In this document: piece after piece, positions 1,553 through 9,684 of the stretch
How the letters are laid out: every line of letters begins with the position of its first letter
Position numbering within the stretch: position 1 is the first letter of the stretch
Assembly: GCA_003456095.1 (NCBI GenBank)
Contig: DMPF01000199.1
Location: 1-9,684 of the forward strand
DNA: 9,684 nucleotides
Source of the DNA: Bacillota bacterium
GTDB lineage: Bacteria; Bacillota; Dethiobacteria; DTU022; UBA8154
Reading direction: 5' to 3'
Notes under the pieces: generated by a model
Seen by the model: the letters and a program-made list of their open reading frames with translations, nothing else
Databases searched by the model: none
Told to the model about the DNA's origin: nothing
Position numbers and translations under genes: made by a program

Positions 1553-3235
1553 TTACCAATCCGCAAAGTAACAGGAAGCGCCGATGAATTCACGCAATAT
1601 GGAGTTGGACGGCACATCGTGCGGCGCCAGCGGCATAAAAGAAGATAGAAACGCCAGCAGCCTGTTGGCGTCAACAAATTCCATCGCAGATTGGTCGATT
1701 TGTTTCAACAGAAATTCAGCATATTCTTTGATTGCCGCCAACTCGTAAACCAGTGATGAGTTAAACATAATATCCGCTTCTTCCTGCAAGCGGAAGATGT
1801 TTCGCTCCTCGCCCCGCCTCACCGATGGCCATCGCCTGATTGTTTCCCGGGCGCCTGTTCCACGAAATTGGGCGTCACGCACAATACGCCGCAGCAGGCG
1901 TGTATCGGTGGTGTGTACACGGGTGTGCCTGTCGATATTAAGGGCGGTCAGCGCCGATATATAGATTTTAAACTTTTGGCTGCGGGGAATGGAGCGGGTC
2001 AGTTCTTCGTTTAAGCCGTGTATACCCTCTATAATCAAGGGCTGATTTTCTTTCAGTCTGATCTGCCTGCCATGGTATTCCCGCGTTCCGGTGGCGAAAT
2101 TAAAGGTGGGGATTTCTACTTCATCGCTACCGATCAGGCGCAGCAGGTGTTCATTAAAGAGCGGAAGGTCGATCGCCTCAATATGCTCGAAGTCAGGGTT
2201 CTTTGACTCATCCAGGGGCGTATGCTCACGGTCCACAAAATAGTCGTCGATGGAGATAGGATAAGGGCGCATACCATTGACCAGGAGCTGTGTGCGCAGG
2301 CGCTGGGCAAAGGTTGTCTTGCCGGAAGAAGACGGGCCCGCAATCAGGATGATGCGGATCTCATCCTTGCGTTCGGTAATCATATCGGCAATCTGGGCGA
2401 TCTTTTTTTCGTGCAATGCCTCGGCAATGCGTATCACCTCAGGACCCTGCCCTTCCTCGATGAGGCTGTTCATGGCTCCCACCGTGTCGAAACCCAGAAT
2501 CTTCCCCCATCTTTCCGCTTCACGAAAAATCTCGAACAGTTTTGTCTGTCGAATATATGGGGGGATGGTAAAGGGATCGTTCTCATCAGGAAAACGGAGC
2601 ACAAGGCCGGGATGGTAGAATTCCAGCGCGAATTTTTGCAGCAATCCGGTACGGTGGAGATGGTAACCGTATAAAGTATCTTCAATATTGCCGATGGAGT
2701 AAAGGCTCAAATAATCCTTTAACCAGTATTTAAGCAAATACACTTTATCATCATACCCCTGGCGGCTGAAAACCTGCGCCGCCTCGGGGAGAGCAACACG
2801 CCTTTTTTTTATGGGAAGATCCATGTTTACAAGCTGCCTCATTCTTTCCTCCACAGCCGTCACGTTTGCCTCATTTAATGCAGGCTTCTTATCGATTTCA
2901 CAATAAAGCCCCTTACCGAGGGAATGTTCAACTTTTACCACTGCTTCGGGAAAAAGATCATGGACCGCTTGAATGAGCAGACCAGTGAGGCTGCGGCGAT
3001 AGATGCGTGTTCCTTCCGTAGTGGTCAAGTCAAGAAATTGTATTACGGCCGGTCCTTCTGCCAAGGAGTTTAGTTCGGCAAGTTTATTATCTACCAGTGC
3101 GGCTACGATGGGGGAAGGGTAAAAACGGCTGATTTCCTCGCTGATCGCAAGCAGGCTGCGTCCTCCGGCTACGGTCAGCATTTCACCACCGGGCAACAAA
3201 ATATCAACTGTTAAAAATTTCGGACGATTTGTCAT
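1553..3235 (-). CDS. Uridine/nucleoside kinase with TGS and ThrRS-like N-terminal domains
   Basis: This 560-residue cytoplasmic enzyme most likely phosphorylates uridine/cytidine or a related nucleoside with a nucleoside triphosphate (pyrimidine salvage). Residues about 8-70 resemble a TGS (ubiquitin-like) domain, and about 75-190 the second additional domain of threonyl-tRNA synthetase. Residues 295-510 are the P-loop kinase: Walker A AGPSSSGKTT (299-308), SIDDYFVDREHTPLDESKNP (328-347) with the nucleoside-binding acidic pair, FNFATGTR (378-385) and IIEGIHGLNEEL (401-412). Length fits the family (about 550). I chose ATG 3235 because GAGGA sits about nine bases upstream and a TATAAT lies at 3287-3292. 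A longer open frame to 3583 covers that promoter and shows no family similarity. The gene is divergent from the pilus operon. Substrate specificity cannot be read from the sequence. Confidence 0.88.
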   Translation of the reverse strand: MTNRPKFLTVDILLPGGEMLTVAGGRSLLAISEEISRFYPSPIVAALVDNKLAELNSLAEGPAVIQFLDLTTTEGTRIYRRSLTGLLIQAVHDLFPEAVVKVEHSLGKGLYCEIDKKPALNEANVTAVEERMRQLVNMDLPIKKRRVALPEAAQVFSRQGYDDKVYLLKYWLKDYLSLYSIGNIEDTLYGYHLHRTGLLQKFALEFYHPGLVLRFPDENDPFTIPPYIRQTKLFEIFREAERWGKILGFDTVGAMNSLIEEGQGPEVIRIAEALHEKKIAQIADMITERKDEIRIILIAGPSSSGKTTFAQRLRTQLLVNGMRPYPISIDDYFVDREHTPLDESKNPDFEHIEAIDLPLFNEHLLRLIGSDEVEIPTFNFATGTREYHGRQIRLKENQPLIIEGIHGLNEELTRSIPRSQKFKIYISALTALNIDRHTRVHTTDTRLLRRIVRDAQFRGTGARETIRRWPSVRRGEERNIFRLQEEADIMFNSSLVYELAAIKEYAEFLLKQIDQSAMEFVDANRLLAFLSSFMPLAPHDVPSNSILREFIGASCYFADW

Positions 3236-3286
3236 CCACAACATCCTCATCATTAGTTGCTTAGCGTATATTGCTGATTGTAAAAT

Positions 3287-3315
3287 ATTATAGTTTAAAT
3301 ATACTGCGGCAGTAA
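3287..3315 (-). promoter_or_regulatory. Probable sigma-A promoter of the uridine kinase gene
   Basis: On the minus strand, a perfect TATAAT -10 box lies at 3292-3287. A weak -35 (TTACTG, 3315-3310) sits 17 bases upstream. Transcription would start near 3280, giving a leader of about 45 bases before ATG 3235. The -35 is poor, so an activator or other promoter is possible. Confidence 0.45.
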
Positions 3316-3526
3316 AGGGGTGCCGAGAAAATAAGCAGCACCGTATCAGTGCCTCATTCAGCTCTGCCACCTCTCTGGTGAAAAGTTCACGCATAATCTG
3401 CTTTTTTTGTTTGTACACCATAGTGGTATTTTTTCTTAAAAACACAACCCTATACGAAGTAGCCCCACTTAAGGCCCATAAAAATAATCTTCCAGAAAAA
3501 AGGAGAGAGAAGGATACCGGAAAAAG

Positions 3527-3555
3527 TTGTAGAATTAAAAAAAGTGTCGTATAAT
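3527..3555 (+). promoter_or_regulatory. Probable sigma-A promoter of the pilus assembly operon
   Basis: TTGTAG (3527-3532) and a perfect TATAAT (3550-3555) are separated by exactly 17 bases, about 50 bases upstream of the first gene. Transcription would start near 3562. The region before the start codon carries CCGGAGG at 3595-3601, a strong ribosome site four bases before GTG 3606. Confidence 0.6.
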
Positions 3556-3605
3556 CGGTTTTTTTATGCAGTCTTATTAACATTTTTCCTCAGTCCGGAG
3601 GTCTT

Positions 3606-4094
3606 GTGGAAATTCGCAATGCTATTCATGATAAAATTCAAATTATCCGTGTTATAATTAGAAATAAAAAAGGACTTATCGTCCCGTTAAGCATCCTCTT
3701 GTTATTGTTGTCAACCGGGCTGGTTTATTATACGATTGAACTGCGCAGGCCAGACGCCTTGCCAGCCCTTCCTGTTGAACCGGCAATAGGAAACGAAAGA
3801 AGGGAAAATGCCTTTGTTGCAGATGATGCGGTGGAGGTATTACCACAGATCGAGCGGCAGGAAGAGGAAGCAACGGTGCGCCCCCCCGATCCCTTTGCCG
3901 CGCCCCCGATCCTGGTAGGTGTGCTTATGGGCGGTGTGGGGGAAAATATAGCTATCATTGAAGCCGGCGGGAATACGTATGTTGCCACTGAAGGGAATAT
4001 GGTGGCCGGGCTGTGGAAGGTTCAGGAAATTCAACGGGATAAGGCTATAATCATCCTGAGAGATCGGGAAACAGTTCTCTATCTTGGCAGGTAA
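3606..4094 (+). CDS. GspC/PilP-like single-pass pilus assembly protein
   Basis: This 162-residue inner-membrane protein has a short cytoplasmic, basic N-terminus (1-23) and one membrane helix (about 24-43). A proline- and acid-rich linker follows (44-93), then a small extracytoplasmic beta domain (about 95-161). That domain opens with DPFAAPPILVGVLMG and has the pattern AIIEAGGNTYVATEGNMVAG and WKVQEIQRDKAIII. This is the layout of GspC homology-region / PilP proteins, whose domain contacts the N0 domain of the secretin in Gram-negative machines. The next gene encodes exactly such an N0 domain and overlaps this stop by one base (TAATG), so the pair is likely translated together. Start GTG 3606 is set by the CCGGAGG just upstream. 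Similarity is by pattern; GspC and PilP cannot be separated by eye. Confidence 0.65.
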   Translation: MEIRNAIHDKIQIIRVIIRNKKGLIVPLSILLLLLSTGLVYYTIELRRPDALPALPVEPAIGNERRENAFVADDAVEVLPQIERQEEEATVRPPDPFAAPPILVGVLMGGVGENIAIIEAGGNTYVATEGNMVAGLWKVQEIQRDKAIIILRDRETVLYLGR

Positions 4095-5392
4095 TGTATA
4101 TGCTAAGTAAGGTGGTAAAGAACAAGCTTTATGCCAGCCTGACGCCCCTGGCGCTCTTCCCTGTACTTTTAGTATGGTGCACCGTTGTCGCTGGGCCAGT
4201 CCCAGCGGCCGGGCAAGCTCCGCTTCATTATAAAGCTTCCGGCACTGCTGGCCAGTTCTACGAAGACCTAGTGCTTTTCGAAAACCCCCCGGGAGAGGCG
4301 GCAGAAAAACCATTTATCCTGGATGTGCGCAATGCTGACCTGCGGGATGTGCTCTCAGCGTTGGCGCTGCGCATGGAGAAAACGATTATCCTGGTTGACG
4401 AACCGGTGCGGGTAACCTTTCAGATAGAGGGGGTATCTCCTAAGAGGGCAATGGAGCTGCTGCTGCAACGCGAAGGTTACGACTACCTGGAAGACAACGG
4501 TCTCATCCTTGTGGGCAGCCCAGAAAGGTTGCACGATGAATATTTTGACCAAATGGCGGTGACCCGCTTCAGCATGCGGTATATCGGTACAGCTCCCCTG
4601 CTCGGCGCTTTGGACCAGTTTGGCGTGCAACTGCCCACCTTTACCGTGGATACGAACCCCCGCACCCTGTGGGTGCAGGGAACCCCCAGGGAATTGGGCC
4701 GGGTAAAGGAGATCATCGGCGCCCTTGACCGCCCGGAAAATGTAGGTGCGGGGACAGTTTTACCATTGGAGCGTTTTGATCTCCAGCACATGGAAGCGGA
4801 AACAATAATTCACTTGCTTCCCCAGCTTGGTATTATCGCCCAGCCGATCACTGTTCCGGCCGCCCCCCGGGTCTTCTGGATACAGAGCACCCCTGATAGG
4901 GCGGCACAGATCCGAGACCTGATCGCTGCCTTGGACCACCCGGAAAACGCTGCGTTGTTACCCAATATCTTTATCTATTCACTGCGCAATATCAGTGCGG
5001 CAGCCGCACAAAGCAGGCTGGAGGAGATGGCTTTATTCGACGAGGTGGAGACCATGACTTTTAGGTTTCCCGAAATTAGTCAGGAGCTGCTGGTCATAAC
5101 TCCCCCCCATTTGCGAGAACAGGTTTACACCGTGCTCGGCCAGCTCGACGAGGCACGCCGCCGCGTGCGCAGACCGGTGGAATCCGCAACCAGTCGCGCC
5201 AGACTGATCGCCCTGCGCACACTGTTGGCGCAGCTTACGGATGTGCCGATCAGCAGGTTATTCATTTCGGATAACCTTACTGGCGACCTTCAAAACCCCT
5301 ATTACATACTCTGGGTGGAGGATACTCCGGATAATATTCAAAAGGTACTGGATATGCTGGCGATCATCGACGCGCCCCGCCAGGCAAATTAA
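4094..5392 (+). CDS. Exported secretin-like N-domain protein without a channel domain
   Basis: This 432-residue protein has a basic then hydrophobic N-terminus (about residues 7-34), probably a Sec signal peptide cleaved near Ala42. A lipobox is not convincing. Residues 73-142 are a secretin/TonB short N-terminal (STN, N0) domain: FILDVRNADLRDVLSALA, then VRVTFQIEGVSPKRAMELLL and LILVGSPE. Four N1-like units follow at about 157-214, 225-284, 293-352 and 366-428. Units 1, 2 and 4 carry a (T/N)PRTLWVQGTP-like strand and an alpha helix ending in LD(R/H)PEN or IDAPRQ. In GspD or PilQ a beta-barrel of about 200 residues with a conserved C-terminal secretin signature follows. Here the gene stops cleanly and no barrel sequence is found before pilT. 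It probably forms an extracytoplasmic ring or scaffold with the GspC/PilP-like protein. Start ATG 4094 overlaps the upstream stop; ATG 4100 is an alternative. Confidence 0.75.
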   Translation: MYMLSKVVKNKLYASLTPLALFPVLLVWCTVVAGPVPAAGQAPLHYKASGTAGQFYEDLVLFENPPGEAAEKPFILDVRNADLRDVLSALALRMEKTIILVDEPVRVTFQIEGVSPKRAMELLLQREGYDYLEDNGLILVGSPERLHDEYFDQMAVTRFSMRYIGTAPLLGALDQFGVQLPTFTVDTNPRTLWVQGTPRELGRVKEIIGALDRPENVGAGTVLPLERFDLQHMEAETIIHLLPQLGIIAQPITVPAAPRVFWIQSTPDRAAQIRDLIAALDHPENAALLPNIFIYSLRNISAAAAQSRLEEMALFDEVETMTFRFPEISQELLVITPPHLREQVYTVLGQLDEARRRVRRPVESATSRARLIALRTLLAQLTDVPISRLFISDNLTGDLQNPYYILWVEDTPDNIQKVLDMLAIIDAPRQAN

Positions 5393-5416
5393 GGAAAAAA
5401 GGAAAAGGAGCTGTTC

Positions 5417-6562
5417 TTGTTGATGCCGGAACAAAAGATAAGCAGTACACCGCGCGGCGGTTACTCCGTCCCCATCGACCAGCTGCTGCAGCTGACGGTG
5501 GATCAGGGAGGATCGGATATGCACCTTACGATGGGAGTGCCTCCCCAAGCCCGCATTCATGGAGATCTGACATCGTTTGATCTCCCCCCCCTCTATCCCG
5601 AGGATATAAAGGGCCTACTCTACAGAATACTGAGCGATCAACAGGTGAAGCAGCTGGAAGAAAAATGGGAGCTGGATCTCTCCTATTCCATCACCGGATT
5701 GGCCCGTTTCCGCGGTAATATTATGTACCAGAAAAACAGCCTTTCCGCCGTATTTCGTGTTGTCCCGTTCGCGGTTCCGGAATTTGAAAAACTGGGTATA
5801 CCGCCTGCCGTCAAGTCCATCTGCGATCTGACACGGGGGCTTGTCCTGGTTACGGGGCCGACCGGCAGCGGCAAATCCACCACCCTGGCTGCCCTGCTTA
5901 ATATTATTAACCGGGACCGCAGCAAGAACATCGTGACGATTGAAGATCCGATTGAATTTCTGCACAAACACCGCAAATCCACAATCCGGCAGCGTGAAGT
6001 GGGCAGCGATACCCATTCTTTTGCCGATGCCCTGCGTCATGTGCTGCGCCATGATCCGGACGTGATCCTGATCGGGGAGATGCGGGATTTGGACAGCATC
6101 GCCATCGCCCTTACGGCTGCGGAAACGGGACACCTGGTTTTTTCCACACTTCATACCCAGACCGCTCCACTGACAGTAAGCCGTATTGTCGATGTATTTG
6201 AGTCCTATCGCCGCGAACAGGTACGGCAGCAGTTGGCCGGCTCGCTACGCGCTGTGGTCTGCCAACAGTTGCTGCCTACAGCTGACGGCAAAGGACGGGT
6301 ACCTGCCGTGGAATTTATGGTGGATACACCGGCAGTACGCAATATGATCCGGGAAGGAAAGGACCGCCAACTATACAGCGCCATTCAGACCGGGCGCATC
6401 CAGGGTATGCAGACCCTGGACCGGTCTCTTTCCGATCTTTGCAAAAAAGGTAAAATTACCAGGGAAACGGCTCTGGAATACTGTGTGGACAGGTCGGAGC
6501 TGGAGCGCCTCCTGGACGGCGGTCCGGAAAAAGGCGAACGCAATTCCCTCTGGCGGGATTAA
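5417..6562 (+). CDS. pilT: Type IV pilus retraction ATPase PilT
   Basis: This is a 381-residue cytoplasmic hexameric motor ATPase. An N-terminal PAS-like half (about 18-120) starts with IDQLLQLTVDQGGSDMHLTM, the usual PilT opening. The RecA-like half carries Walker A GPTGSGKST (147-155), Asp box IVTIEDPIEFLH (172-183), Walker B DVILIGEMRD (215-224) with the catalytic Glu, and His box HLVFSTLHTQ (239-248). AVRNMIRE (306-313) is the PilT-specific AIRNLIRE retraction motif. GMQTLDRSL (330-338) follows. It lacks the long N-terminal MshEN domain and zinc cysteines of PilB/GspE, so a retraction role is favoured. The ribosome site AAGGAG (5405-5410) suits TTG 5417 (6-base gap) better than ATG 5423 (12), so the start is uncertain by two codons. 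It lies 24 bases after the secretin-like gene and 30 before pilC. Confidence 0.93.
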   Translation: MLMPEQKISSTPRGGYSVPIDQLLQLTVDQGGSDMHLTMGVPPQARIHGDLTSFDLPPLYPEDIKGLLYRILSDQQVKQLEEKWELDLSYSITGLARFRGNIMYQKNSLSAVFRVVPFAVPEFEKLGIPPAVKSICDLTRGLVLVTGPTGSGKSTTLAALLNIINRDRSKNIVTIEDPIEFLHKHRKSTIRQREVGSDTHSFADALRHVLRHDPDVILIGEMRDLDSIAIALTAAETGHLVFSTLHTQTAPLTVSRIVDVFESYRREQVRQQLAGSLRAVVCQQLLPTADGKGRVPAVEFMVDTPAVRNMIREGKDRQLYSAIQTGRIQGMQTLDRSLSDLCKKGKITRETALEYCVDRSELERLLDGGPEKGERNSLWRD

Positions 6563-6592: not shown

Positions 6593-7798
6593 ATGGGTTT
6601 GTTTTTTTATGAGGTGTTCAATACGGTGGGAGAGATTGTAAAGGGGAAGCTTGAGGCCCCGGAAGAAGAAGCAGTTGCGGATAAACTGCGCAAGATGGGC
6701 TACTTTGTCATCGACATAAAGGAGATCCGTCCCTCGCCTTTAAGCGGCCTCCTTAAAGGCAAAGTTAAGATCGGCGCCGGCGAACTTGGCCTATTCAGCC
6801 GTCAGTTGGCAGCCATGCTCGATGCCGGCGTGCCCCTTACGCGCTCACTCTATACCCTGAGCAGCCAGATGACCAATAAAGGATTTGGCCGTATTGTGGG
6901 TGAAATATCCCGCAGCGTGGAAGGAGGCATGAACTTTGCGGAGTCATTGAGTGCTTATCCCCATGTTTTTCCTTCTCTTTTTACCGGAATGGTCAGGGCG
7001 GGAGAGGTGGGAGGGGTCCTGCAGGAATCCCTCATCCGTCTTTCCGAGCAGCTGCAAAGGGATAAGGTTCTGCAGGACAGCTTGCGCTCCGCTACCTTTT
7101 ACCCTGCCGCTATTGGCGTATTCGCGCTGCTTGTATTACTGGGGATGCTTATTTTCCTCGTGCCTGTTTTTATGGGCTTTTTTCCCCCGGATATGCGGCT
7201 GCCTCTGCCTACGCAGATCGTTGTCCTCATCTCGGAATCACTGCGCTACCGGTGGTATATCTGGTTTCTGGCGGTAACCTTGCTGCTCTTTGCTTTATTC
7301 TATTACGTGCGCAGCGCTGCGGGCAGGCGCCACTGGGATCTGATCAAGTTCCGTATCCCCCTTTTTGGCCCGCTGTTTCACCGGGCAGCTATCGCCCAAT
7401 TCGCGCGCACCCTCTCCACCCTATTTGGAGGTGGCATTCCCGTTGTCCAGGCATTGGAAGCAGCGGGGGCGGCCACAGGCAATATCCGGCTGCAAGAAGC
7501 AGCGAAAGATGCGGCGGAAAAAGTGCAGGAGGGAAAAAGTATTACTATACCGCTGAGCGAGAGCCCCGTTTTCCCCCCCATGGTCACGCAAATGGTAAGT
7601 ATCGGGGAGGAGACAGGCGCGCTGCCCGATTTGTTAAACCGCATCGCCAGTTTTTTTGAAGACGAGGTTGCAGTTCTAACCAAAGGACTGACTGCCATGA
7701 TCGAGCCGATTATGCTCATCGTTGTTGGATTAACGGTGGGAGCAATACTCATTTCGCTCTATTTGCCAATGTTTATAATTATTACAGAGCAGTTATAG
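6593..7798 (+). CDS. pilC: Type IV pilus inner-membrane platform protein PilC (GspF family)
   Basis: This 401-residue polytopic membrane protein anchors the motor ATPase and the PilN/PilO complex. Two GspF domains are clear: about 65-190 (FSRQLAAMLDAGVPLTRSL, then MVRAGEVGGVLQESL) and about 268-390 (FARTLSTLFGGGIPVVQALE, then MVSIGEETGALPDLL). Membrane helices lie near 170-195, 220-240 and 370-396. The cytoplasmic N-terminus (1-60) has the FEVYNTVGEIVKGKLEA-like strand pattern typical of the family. Length is normal. The start is ATG 6593, but its ribosome site is poor: the best purine run, GGGAG (6572-6576), is 16 bases away, and a four-codon frame (6577-6591) sits between. Coupling to pilT translation may matter. 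It follows pilT by 30 bases, as expected for its partner. Confidence 0.93.
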   Translation: MGLFFYEVFNTVGEIVKGKLEAPEEEAVADKLRKMGYFVIDIKEIRPSPLSGLLKGKVKIGAGELGLFSRQLAAMLDAGVPLTRSLYTLSSQMTNKGFGRIVGEISRSVEGGMNFAESLSAYPHVFPSLFTGMVRAGEVGGVLQESLIRLSEQLQRDKVLQDSLRSATFYPAAIGVFALLVLLGMLIFLVPVFMGFFPPDMRLPLPTQIVVLISESLRYRWYIWFLAVTLLLFALFYYVRSAAGRRHWDLIKFRIPLFGPLFHRAAIAQFARTLSTLFGGGIPVVQALEAAGAATGNIRLQEAAKDAAEKVQEGKSITIPLSESPVFPPMVTQMVSIGEETGALPDLLNRIASFFEDEVAVLTKGLTAMIEPIMLIVVGLTVGAILISLYLPMFIIITEQL

Positions 7799-7812
7799 TA
7801 AAGGTGAAACTT

Positions 7813-8841
7813 ATGTTGTTTGCTGCCGGCAATATTGTTTCCGCGTTGGATCTTGATCACGGCGAGCTGCGGGCTGTGGAACTGCGCAGCAGTAAAAGCG
7901 GCCTTGAGCTATTGACATGGGGGCGCACTCCCCTCCCGGCAGAGGCGCTGTCCAATGGCAGAATACTGCAGCCGCATGTTGTGGCAGGATCTCTGGAACG
8001 CCTTTGGAAAGAAAATAAATTCAAAAGCCGTGAAGTGATTGTCGGCGTTTCCAGCCAGGATGTGCTGGTCCGTTTCGCTTCCTTTCCGCGCATTCCTTTG
8101 GAAAAAATACGCTCCATGGTCCGTTTCCAGACCAGGGATTATCTTCCCATTTCGCTGGACGATGCGATTATGGATCTGTCCATCATCGGGCCTGCTGCCG
8201 AAGCGAAAGAGCATATGCAGGAGGTGCTCCTTGTGGCAACACCGCGGATTATGATTCAAAACATCCTGGAGACTGTGGCGCAGGCCGGATTAAAGCCAAG
8301 GGATATTAACGTGGCTTCACTGTCCCTGCTGCAGCTGTTGCCCATTAGTATTAACAGCAATGACGGTGTTGTCGCTTTTCTGGATTTGGCGAACGGCTCG
8401 AGCAATATATTTGTGGCCACTGCCGCGGGCATACCGCGCCTGGCGCGCCGCCTTTTTACCGGTCTGCAGTATGCAGCCGAGCTGATGCGCTGTTCCCTGC
8501 CTGTAGTGTTGCAGGAGGCCGGCGCCGCTACGGACAGCGCTCATCCCGCTCCTTATAACGAATGGGTTGATTCTTTGGTGAAGGATGTTCGTTCGTCGAT
8601 TAGCTATTATCAGGCGCAGGCGGGAGCGGCACCGGTGGAACGGCTGATCTTAAGCGGTCGGGGCGCCCGCCTGGCCGGCATTGCCTGCTTATTGGAGGAT
8701 ATTTTTGGCATACCGGTCAGCACCGTTGCGCCGCTGCAGCTCATTAACAGTATAAAACGGGATCGGGGAGCGCTGGAAAAAGAAGCGGTTGACTATGCCG
8801 TGAGTATTGCGCTGGCCTGCGGCGCGGCAGGAGGGAGTTGA
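7813..8841 (+). CDS. pilM: Actin-like pilus assembly ATPase PilM
   Basis: This 342-residue cytoplasmic protein has an actin/FtsA-like fold and couples pilus assembly by binding the N-terminal tail of PilN. Visible blocks (numbered from this start) are the first phosphate loop SALDLDHGELRAVELR (10-25) and IVGVSSQDVLVRFASFPRIP (76-95). A typical PilM helix FQTRDYLPISLDDAIMDL (105-122) comes next. The second phosphate loop is VVAFLDLANGSSNIFVA (186-202), and the adenosine motif LILSGRGARLAGI (278-290). No membrane helix is seen. ATG 7813 is preferred because AAGGTG (7801-7806) lies six bases upstream. GTG 7804 would add three residues but is inside that ribosome site. It starts 14 bases after the pilC stop, and its own stop adjoins pilN. 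Confidence 0.9.
   Translation: MLFAAGNIVSALDLDHGELRAVELRSSKSGLELLTWGRTPLPAEALSNGRILQPHVVAGSLERLWKENKFKSREVIVGVSSQDVLVRFASFPRIPLEKIRSMVRFQTRDYLPISLDDAIMDLSIIGPAAEAKEHMQEVLLVATPRIMIQNILETVAQAGLKPRDINVASLSLLQLLPISINSNDGVVAFLDLANGSSNIFVATAAGIPRLARRLFTGLQYAAELMRCSLPVVLQEAGAATDSAHPAPYNEWVDSLVKDVRSSISYYQAQAGAAPVERLILSGRGARLAGIACLLEDIFGIPVSTVAPLQLINSIKRDRGALEKEAVDYAVSIALACGAAGGS
8829..8835 (+). promoter_or_regulatory. Shine-Dalgarno of pilN, inside the end of pilM
   Basis: AGGAGGG lies within the last codons of pilM. It is eight bases before TTG 8844 but only two before TTG 8838, which settles the pilN start at 8844. Its position suggests pilN translation follows pilM. Confidence 0.65.
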
Positions 8842-8843
8842 TA

Positions 8844-9431
8844 TTGAAGCCGATCAGCCTCCTACCCCCGCAAATAAAAATCCGTCAGCGCGAGTACCGC
8901 CGCAGGCTATTCTATCTTCTGGCCGGCGCTTTTACACTGTTTACCTTTGTTTTACTAAACGCTGTATTTTTTTTCCTCTCCGCTGCTGTGCTAAACAGAC
9001 TGGCGCTGGTGCAGCAAGAGCGTTATCTGGTTCGGCAGCAAATTGACGCCCTGGGTGAATATGCGGCACTGCATGAACAAGCCGTTGCTACTGCAAGGAT
9101 CCTCGAAGACGCCCTGGGCAAGGAACCGGACCGGCATGCCCTGCTGCTGGCGCTGGCCCTTGAGGCTCCTACGGGTATACACATATCGCATCTTTCCGAC
9201 TCTTTTGACGGGGAAAGGGGCGAGCTTCTCTTGCTAGGGTTCGCCTCCGATCACGATACTATTTCTTTCTGGGTGGAACGCCTTGAAGCCATACCCCAAC
9301 TGGCGCAGGTAGATTGCCGTTTGACCGTGGAGAGGCTTGAGCATGAGAGAACAATCATTCACTTTGAGATCAGCGCGGTCATAGAGCCGGGTGAGCCTGC
9401 CGGGGGAAGAAAGGGGATAGTTGACCTTTGA
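8844..9431 (+). CDS. pilN: Type IV pilus inner-membrane assembly protein PilN
   Basis: This 195-residue bitopic protein opens with KPISLLPPQIKIRQ (2-15), a version of the INLLP tail by which PilN docks onto PilM. One membrane helix follows (about 24-50), then a coiled coil (about 55-92) and a small extracytoplasmic alpha/beta domain (about 97-180) ending in a charged tail. Size and layout match PilN, which pairs with PilO to form a periplasmic/extracytoplasmic dimer linking the cytoplasmic PilM ring to the outer parts of the machine. TTG 8844 is chosen for the correct distance to AGGAGGG. The gene starts two bases after the pilM stop and overlaps the next start by four bases. Confidence 0.87.
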   Translation: MKPISLLPPQIKIRQREYRRRLFYLLAGAFTLFTFVLLNAVFFFLSAAVLNRLALVQQERYLVRQQIDALGEYAALHEQAVATARILEDALGKEPDRHALLLALALEAPTGIHISHLSDSFDGERGELLLLGFASDHDTISFWVERLEAIPQLAQVDCRLTVERLEHERTIIHFEISAVIEPGEPAGGRKGIVDL

Positions 9432-9684
9432 GCCTGAAAAGAATGCTATCCGCGGAAAATATAACGCTCTATCTGCTCATACTGATGCTAATCCTGCTCA
9501 TCATCTTTTCCGGCAGGCAGCTCTCGGCGCTGGGAGACGGACGTGAAATGCTTAAACTCGAAGAAGAAGCGCTTGCCGCGGATCAGGCACGTCTGCTTTT
9601 TTTAGAAGGGCTTGCGGCGGAGAAACCGCAACTCCGACTGGATCTGGCCTCTGCGCATAGGCTTATTCCGCAAAAAGCTTCTGA
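9428..9684 (+). CDS. pilO: Type IV pilus assembly protein PilO, 5' part only
   Basis: The frame is open from TTG 9428 to the window end (85 codons). It shows a short basic N-terminus, one membrane helix (about residues 11-29, ITLYLLILMLILLIIFS) and a long charged coiled coil (about 30-72), then LIPQKAS. This is the PilO layout, though sequence conservation in this family is low. Supporting context is strong: it directly follows pilM-pilN and overlaps the pilN stop (TTGA). AAGGGG at 9411-9416 lies 11 bases upstream of TTG 9428. ATG 9443 is an alternative start without a ribosome site. PilO would dimerise with PilN in the extracytoplasmic space. The rest lies beyond the window. Confidence 0.7.
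   Translation, partial: MSLKRMLSAENITLYLLILMLILLIIFSGRQLSALGDGREMLKLEEEALAADQARLLFLEGLAAEKPQLRLDLASAHRLIPQKAS

Follow-up and report, generated by a model that had tools for sequence, protein, structure and literature searches.

The window analysed here is a 9,684-nucleotide stretch of DNA from a member of the Bacillota (contig DMPF01000199.1, assembly GCA_003456095.1). It carries a type IVa pilus locus in which the gene at 4094–5392 encodes a PilQ-type secretin homologue devoid of the secretin beta-barrel, hereafter termed the collar. The initial annotation had described this protein as an N0/STN domain followed by four N1-like units, and our analysis confirmed the observation of a secretin homologue without a barrel in a pilus locus. 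The features of the gene are as follows.

4094–5392, plus strand: barrel-less PilQ-type secretin homologue (collar); ATG start, 432 residues, frame intact
4094–4210, plus strand: probable signal peptide, residues 1–39, read from the sequence by eye
4319–4516, plus strand: N0 (STN-type) domain, residues 76–141, placed by family-built hidden Markov models (HMMs)
4559–4729, plus strand: N1-like domain 1, residues 156–212, placed by the same HMMs
4766–4936, plus strand: N1-like domain 2, residues 225–281, placed by the same HMMs
4973–5149, plus strand: N1-like domain 3, residues 294–352, placed by the same HMMs
5165–5383, plus strand: C-terminal domain, residues 358–430, beta-alpha-beta-beta-alpha, occupying the place of the barrel in a secretin

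The fourth N1-like unit proved to be the divergent C-terminal domain (the N1 HMM matched residues 372–426), so that the HMM placement of N0 and four N1-like units agreed with the domain count given initially. Pfam assigned Secretin_N (PF03958, E 9.3e-19; four stretches at a loose threshold, two at E 0.01) and, weakly, GspD_N0 (E 0.18) to the collar. Neither LysM nor the secretin barrel was detected by Pfam in the window protein, the barrel model (PF00263) giving no match with reporting up to E 10. From the NCBIfam models of GspD and PilQ, the N-terminal parts alone matched, far under cut-off (38.9 of 351 bits and 28 of 284 bits). The best solved relatives of the collar profile were seven entries of PilQ (E 9e-11 to 2.6e-8), followed by GspD (1.1e-6). 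An AlphaFold 2 model (mean predicted local distance difference test score, pLDDT, 79.5; predicted template-modelling score 0.40) showed N0 at residues 74–141 and alpha/beta domains up to residue 430; no beta-barrel was present, as the initial annotation had held. The model also placed a helix at residues 17–32, within the probable signal peptide. Modelled alone, the C-terminal domain reached a pLDDT of 93.5. Four of its positions (S39, L53, W54 and P59 of the aligned fragment) were invariant across 30 sequences, two rows of another type having been left out of the alignment, and comparison of the domain with the PDB yielded no decisive match.

The 24-base gap between the collar stop and the called TTG start of pilT (5393–5416) and the intact frame were both verified. 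A sequencing error that had removed the barrel could be excluded, because relatives are encoded at 36 loci of other genomes, a 40-sequence alignment (the window protein plus 39 relatives) contained no PF00263 match at E 0.01, and the C-terminal domain was retained at 35 of the 36 loci, the exception (L070) ending at a contig edge. With respect to the secretin superfamily, whose members form rings of about 12–15 subunits, the ring-building N0 and N1-like domains are thus present (PF03958, PilQ as top profile match, N0 fold), and the barrel is missing from the window protein, the aligned members and the model.

These relatives were collected in several ways. A protein search returned 28 beyond the window protein, and a profile search gave at least 33 proteins at E 1e-30, the window protein counted; precomputed domain annotations recorded PF00263 in none of the proteins listed from the latter. 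The 36 loci, found by an alignment scan of genome records, belong to Bacillota of the genera Dethiobacter, Desulfoscipio, Sporotomaculum, Desulforudis, Desulfovirgula, Desulfotruncus, Desulforamulus, Desulforadius, Desulfocucumis, Heliobacterium, Heliophilum, Heliorestis and Thermoclostridium, and to Clostridia metagenome-assembled genomes (MAGs). The collar recurs across many Bacillota families, though patchily: a match was found in 18 of the 60 nearest genomes and in one of four others of the window's genus. Among the 40 aligned members, Secretin_N was detected in 39, STN in 24, LysM in five and an InlB-like repeat in four; in the LysM-bearing relatives inspected by sequence, LysM precedes N0. 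The number of N1-like units per collar, counted as HMM matches including the C-terminal unit, ranges from two to 11. Two occur in relatives from the same order with an InlB-like tail, three in most Desulfotomaculum-type genera, four in the window protein, five in the Dethiobacter and Thermoclostridium types, six in one protein (P0014) and 11 in a single genome from the order. The collar of this last genome, 1146 residues long (L073:832-4272), comprises ten regular N1-like repeats plus one divergent unit, and ends in an InlB-like repeat. Two collars (P0025 and P0027) appear in public records under the name 'energy transducer TonB', a label that probably stems from the STN domain. In Desulforamulus aquiferis (L072), the collar and several pil open reading frames (ORFs) are fragmented, suggestive of either a low-quality draft or decaying genes.

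Around the collar, the window encodes the following pilus genes.

3606–4094, plus strand: PilP/GspC-like protein of 162 residues with an N-terminal hydrophobic segment, a linker, a conserved DPF motif and an HR-like domain
5417–6562, plus strand: pilT, retraction ATPase (TIGR01420, E 1.8e-141, over cut-off)
6593–7798, plus strand: pilC, platform protein (PF00482, E 1.8e-60)
7804–8841, plus strand: pilM (PF11104, E 3.5e-26; TIGR01175, 131.3 bits, cut-off 133)
8838–9431, plus strand: pilN (PF05137, E 0.0011, 19.4 bits, cut-off 22.8; phmmer matches to the ORFs following pilM in relatives)
9428–9684, plus strand: start of pilO, an open-ended ORF ending at the contig edge (phmmer matches to the ORFs following pilN in six relatives; no Pfam match to the fragment)

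The joint presence of PilT, PilC, PilM and PilN, with PilM and PilN slightly under their curated cut-offs, identifies the locus as one for a type IVa pilus. A type II secretion system, which would combine a barrel-bearing GspD with the lack of a PilT-type retraction ATPase, was rejected since PilT is present and the barrel absent. A PilB-type ORF was found at 29 of the 36 relatives' loci and none on the 9.7 kb window contig. Using a pattern of our own, we detected a type IV prepilin motif in ten of 11 relatives examined, in seven of them directly after the collar; the window contig contained no such motif. The left contig end holds a transposase helix-turn-helix ORF (PF01527; 97–390) and an IS200-like Y1 transposase (PF01797, E 4.3e-16; 548–1225), and a 676-residue ORF (1553–3583, minus strand) containing a uridine kinase domain (PF00485) lies divergent from the pil genes.

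The PilP-like ORF and the collar start share one base (TAATG). Its match to T2SSC (PF11356) was weak and under cut-off in the window (E 0.036); of the 26 family members aligned, 23 matched T2SSC with E no worse than 0.1 (best 9.6e-7), 15 matched Y4YQ_C and one matched PilP (PF04351). The family profile matched the HR domain of GspC in the PDB (3oss_C, E 0.0027). Counting the window with the 36 relatives' loci, a PilP-like gene lies within 300 nucleotides upstream of the collar at 30 of 37 loci. The gene order pilM-N-O-P-collar was observed at 22 of them, and P-collar-T-C-M-N in the window, L037–L039, L062 and L063. As for the remaining seven, the PilP-like gene is on the opposite strand at L046 and L047, L071 begins within the collar, and no PilP-like gene is present at L058, L060, L067 and L068. 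At L046 and L047, both from Desulforudis, the collar itself adjoins a divergent pil cluster on the opposite strand. A PilP-like gene also adjoins the full secretin at 14 of 20 secretin-bearing Bacillota loci, all with PF00263 in the ORF. In diderm machines, PilQ is described as tied to PilN/PilO via PilP (passages of PMC6916266 and PMC10191384). Because the gene upstream of the collar is PilP/GspC-like, this joint seems to have been kept in collar loci. The HMMs found no N0 in the collars of L058, L060, L067 and L068 (L058:9665-10798, L060:3606-4673, L067:8887-9990 and L068:2216-3301) or in the contig-end fragment L071. The former four are the same loci that lack the PilP-like gene, which was absent genome-wide as well (none of four genomes, versus six of six control genomes). 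As the four form a single clade in the PilM tree, the joint absence of N0 and PilP reflects one event, and such joint absence is the outcome that a docking pair predicts. The N-termini of these collars show a hydrophobic stretch and a GDPF motif recalling the DPF of the PilP family, and from this resemblance they may have arisen by the joining of a PilP anchor to the N1-like portion.

Collar and secretin proved mutually exclusive in the genomes searched. PF00263 over cut-off or under it was found in none of the 35 collar genomes searched, representing 35 of the 36 loci. In the window's order, six of 71 genomes gave PF00263 matches, all under cut-off, and the four inspected were permease-like. 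At 1e-8, the collar profile matched 82 of 398 Bacillota genomes, which fell into two sets. A strong set of 17 genomes (best E 2.3e-59 or better) contained no secretin over cut-off, one of them (G029) having a permease-like PF00263 match, and a weak set of 65 genomes (best E 1.8e-24 or weaker) all carried a secretin over cut-off. Overall, 103 of the 398 genomes had such a secretin; comparison of 0 of 17 collar genomes with 103 of 381 others gave a Fisher p of 0.009, kinship being ignored.

Taken together, we consider it likely that the collar, held by its PilP-like neighbour, forms a ring around the type IV pilus where the filament crosses the cell wall. We infer ring assembly, docking, wall position, filament guidance and load-bearing along the following lines. 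The PilQ of a diderm ancestor would have lost its barrel once, along with the loss of the outer membrane. N0 would dock on the PilP-like protein through the latter's HR domain, with that protein in turn resting on PilN/PilO, the N1-like domains would stack as rings in the wall zone, and the C-terminal domain would fill the outer position once held by the barrel. In some relatives, not in the window protein, LysM ahead of N0 could anchor the collar to peptidoglycan. It would thereby replace the AMIN domains of diderm PilQ, which bind peptidoglycan and recruit PilQ according to the abstract of PMC10653833. The assembled collar would lead the filament across the wall, to which it would also transmit the PilT-driven pulling force.

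The initial annotation had offered two settings for such a protein, a channel-less collar in the wall zone of a one-membrane host or, with two membranes, a separate channel protein. Omp85 was absent from 29 of 29 collar genomes and LptD from 33 of 33. Since both of these and the secretin barrel were missing from the collar genomes searched, no separate-channel candidate of those kinds exists there, and the one-membrane branch of the earlier interpretation is supported. It is accordingly highly improbable that these cells possess an unusual outer layer in which another protein is the channel and the collar its periplasmic part. What speaks for such a layer are LpxC homologues in three of 33 collar genomes (L167, L168 and L169) and an Omp85 in one of 71 genomes of the order. 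However, the LpxC homologues lie in similar gene clusters among apparent sugar-aminotransferase-like and WbqC-like ORFs. These surroundings resemble, by eye, a surface-glycan cluster, and on this sequence context the homologues are possibly deacetylases for a surface glycan; the same three genomes gave no match to Omp85 or LptD. The sole Omp85 (a BamA-like protein of 431 residues, L036:556-1851), possibly a contaminant, comes from the window's family, in a MAG that has 8% contamination and gave no collar match. The walls of heliobacteria and Desulfotomaculum-type cells are of the Gram-positive kind, and a monoderm envelope is the simplest reading for the collar bacteria. We also regard it as unlikely that the collar only stabilises the PilN/PilO/PilP membrane complex, with no collar around the filament and with the N1-like repeats as a passive outside tail. 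PilN–PilO stability in diderms does depend on PilP, as stated in part of PMC6916266, where Streptococcus sanguinis is also described as making type IV pili without PilP or PilQ; the latter weighs against our proposal and implies that a collar is not universally required. Mere stabilisation is nevertheless difficult to reconcile with the four loci that keep the N1-like repeats and the C-terminal domain despite the loss of N0 and PilP, with the multiplication of repeats to 11, or with the addition of LysM in some members.

A further explanation, that a diderm outside the phylum donated the operon by horizontal transfer and that the collar represents a secretin in decay, goes back in part to Imam et al. 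2011, who in the passages available proposed transfer of PilQ-bearing operons for Desulfotomaculum reducens, Pelotomaculum thermopropionicum and Halothermothrix orenii (PMC3244431). We consider it quite unlikely, as decay does not accord with the long open frames and with the C-terminal domain conserved across many families. In a PilM tree of 51 loci, moreover, one branch splits 33 collar from 18 secretin loci (support 98/100; 97% of 200 bootstraps), so any transfer would be old and single. A rapidly built tree from concatenated PilC, PilM and PilT (45 loci) required two changes, since a pair of Desulforudis loci whose pil genes are unlinked and divergent sits beside long branches. Both trees comprise Bacillota loci only and are unrooted, and are therefore compatible with an old transfer. 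The simplest history is that a PilQ-bearing ancestor lost the barrel a single time, and the collar is probably a relic of a lost outer membrane. More tentatively, and with somewhat more doubt than conviction, we propose that the proteins constitute a dedicated one-membrane pilus conduit: stacked, pore-less N-rings on PilP, which in certain species LysM would tie to the wall. The height of the stack would follow from its count of N1-like units (two to 11), and the whole would derive from an outer-membrane gate.

Among known systems, the collar is most readily compared with PilQ, the type IVa secretin. It shares the N0 and N1-like domains, the best solved match and, in many loci, the position after the PilP-like gene at the end of pilMNOP, but differs by a small alpha/beta C-terminal domain in place of barrel and channel, by its varying N1-like count and by the LysM ahead of N0 in some relatives. 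GspD/GspC of type II secretion likewise pair N0 with an HR-domain partner and have several N domains; the collar locus, however, has PilT, PilM and PilN, and the collar sequence is closer to PilQ than to GspD. Monoderm type IVa pili such as those of S. sanguinis resemble the collar systems in PilM/N/O, platform protein, PilT, pilins and the lack of an outer membrane, but are without PilP and PilQ in the parts consulted of PMC6916266 and PMC4471445, whereas collar loci have both in altered form.

Imam et al. described PilQ homologues from the pil operons of some Gram-positive bacteria (PMC3244431). Judged by genera alone, those of Desulfotomaculum reducens and Pelotomaculum probably belong to the collar family; they were treated as secretin homologues, and the passages concerned are silent on a missing barrel, PilP, LysM or repeats. 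Extracts of reviews from 2014 and 2019 state that Gram-positive or monoderm type IV pili lack PilP and PilQ (PMC4471445, PMC6916266), and a 2019 filament survey, as excerpted, takes the secretin as absent from monoderms (PMC6668835). The pil clusters of diderm and monoderm Bacillota are called similar except for PilQ in a section of PMC5007114, and one syntroph is listed with pilB, pilC and pilT and without pilQ or pilP in an excerpt of PMC11201294. Within the open-licence literature, searched by title or abstract opening, we found no account of a barrel-less PilQ in monoderms.

From the lack of secretin and PilP in monoderms, the same two reviews, in the portions seen, infer which parts are essential for filament assembly (PMC6916266, PMC4471445). 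Contrary to these accounts, the collar family comprises Bacillota with both a PilP-like protein and a PilQ-type protein from which the pore has been removed. It thus separates the collar function of secretins from their channel function, as a natural deletion series. The passage of pili through the thick wall is called unclear in part of PMC5007114, and the collar is a candidate answer to how this crossing is achieved. It may also be a molecular trace of the loss of the outer membrane in Bacillota.
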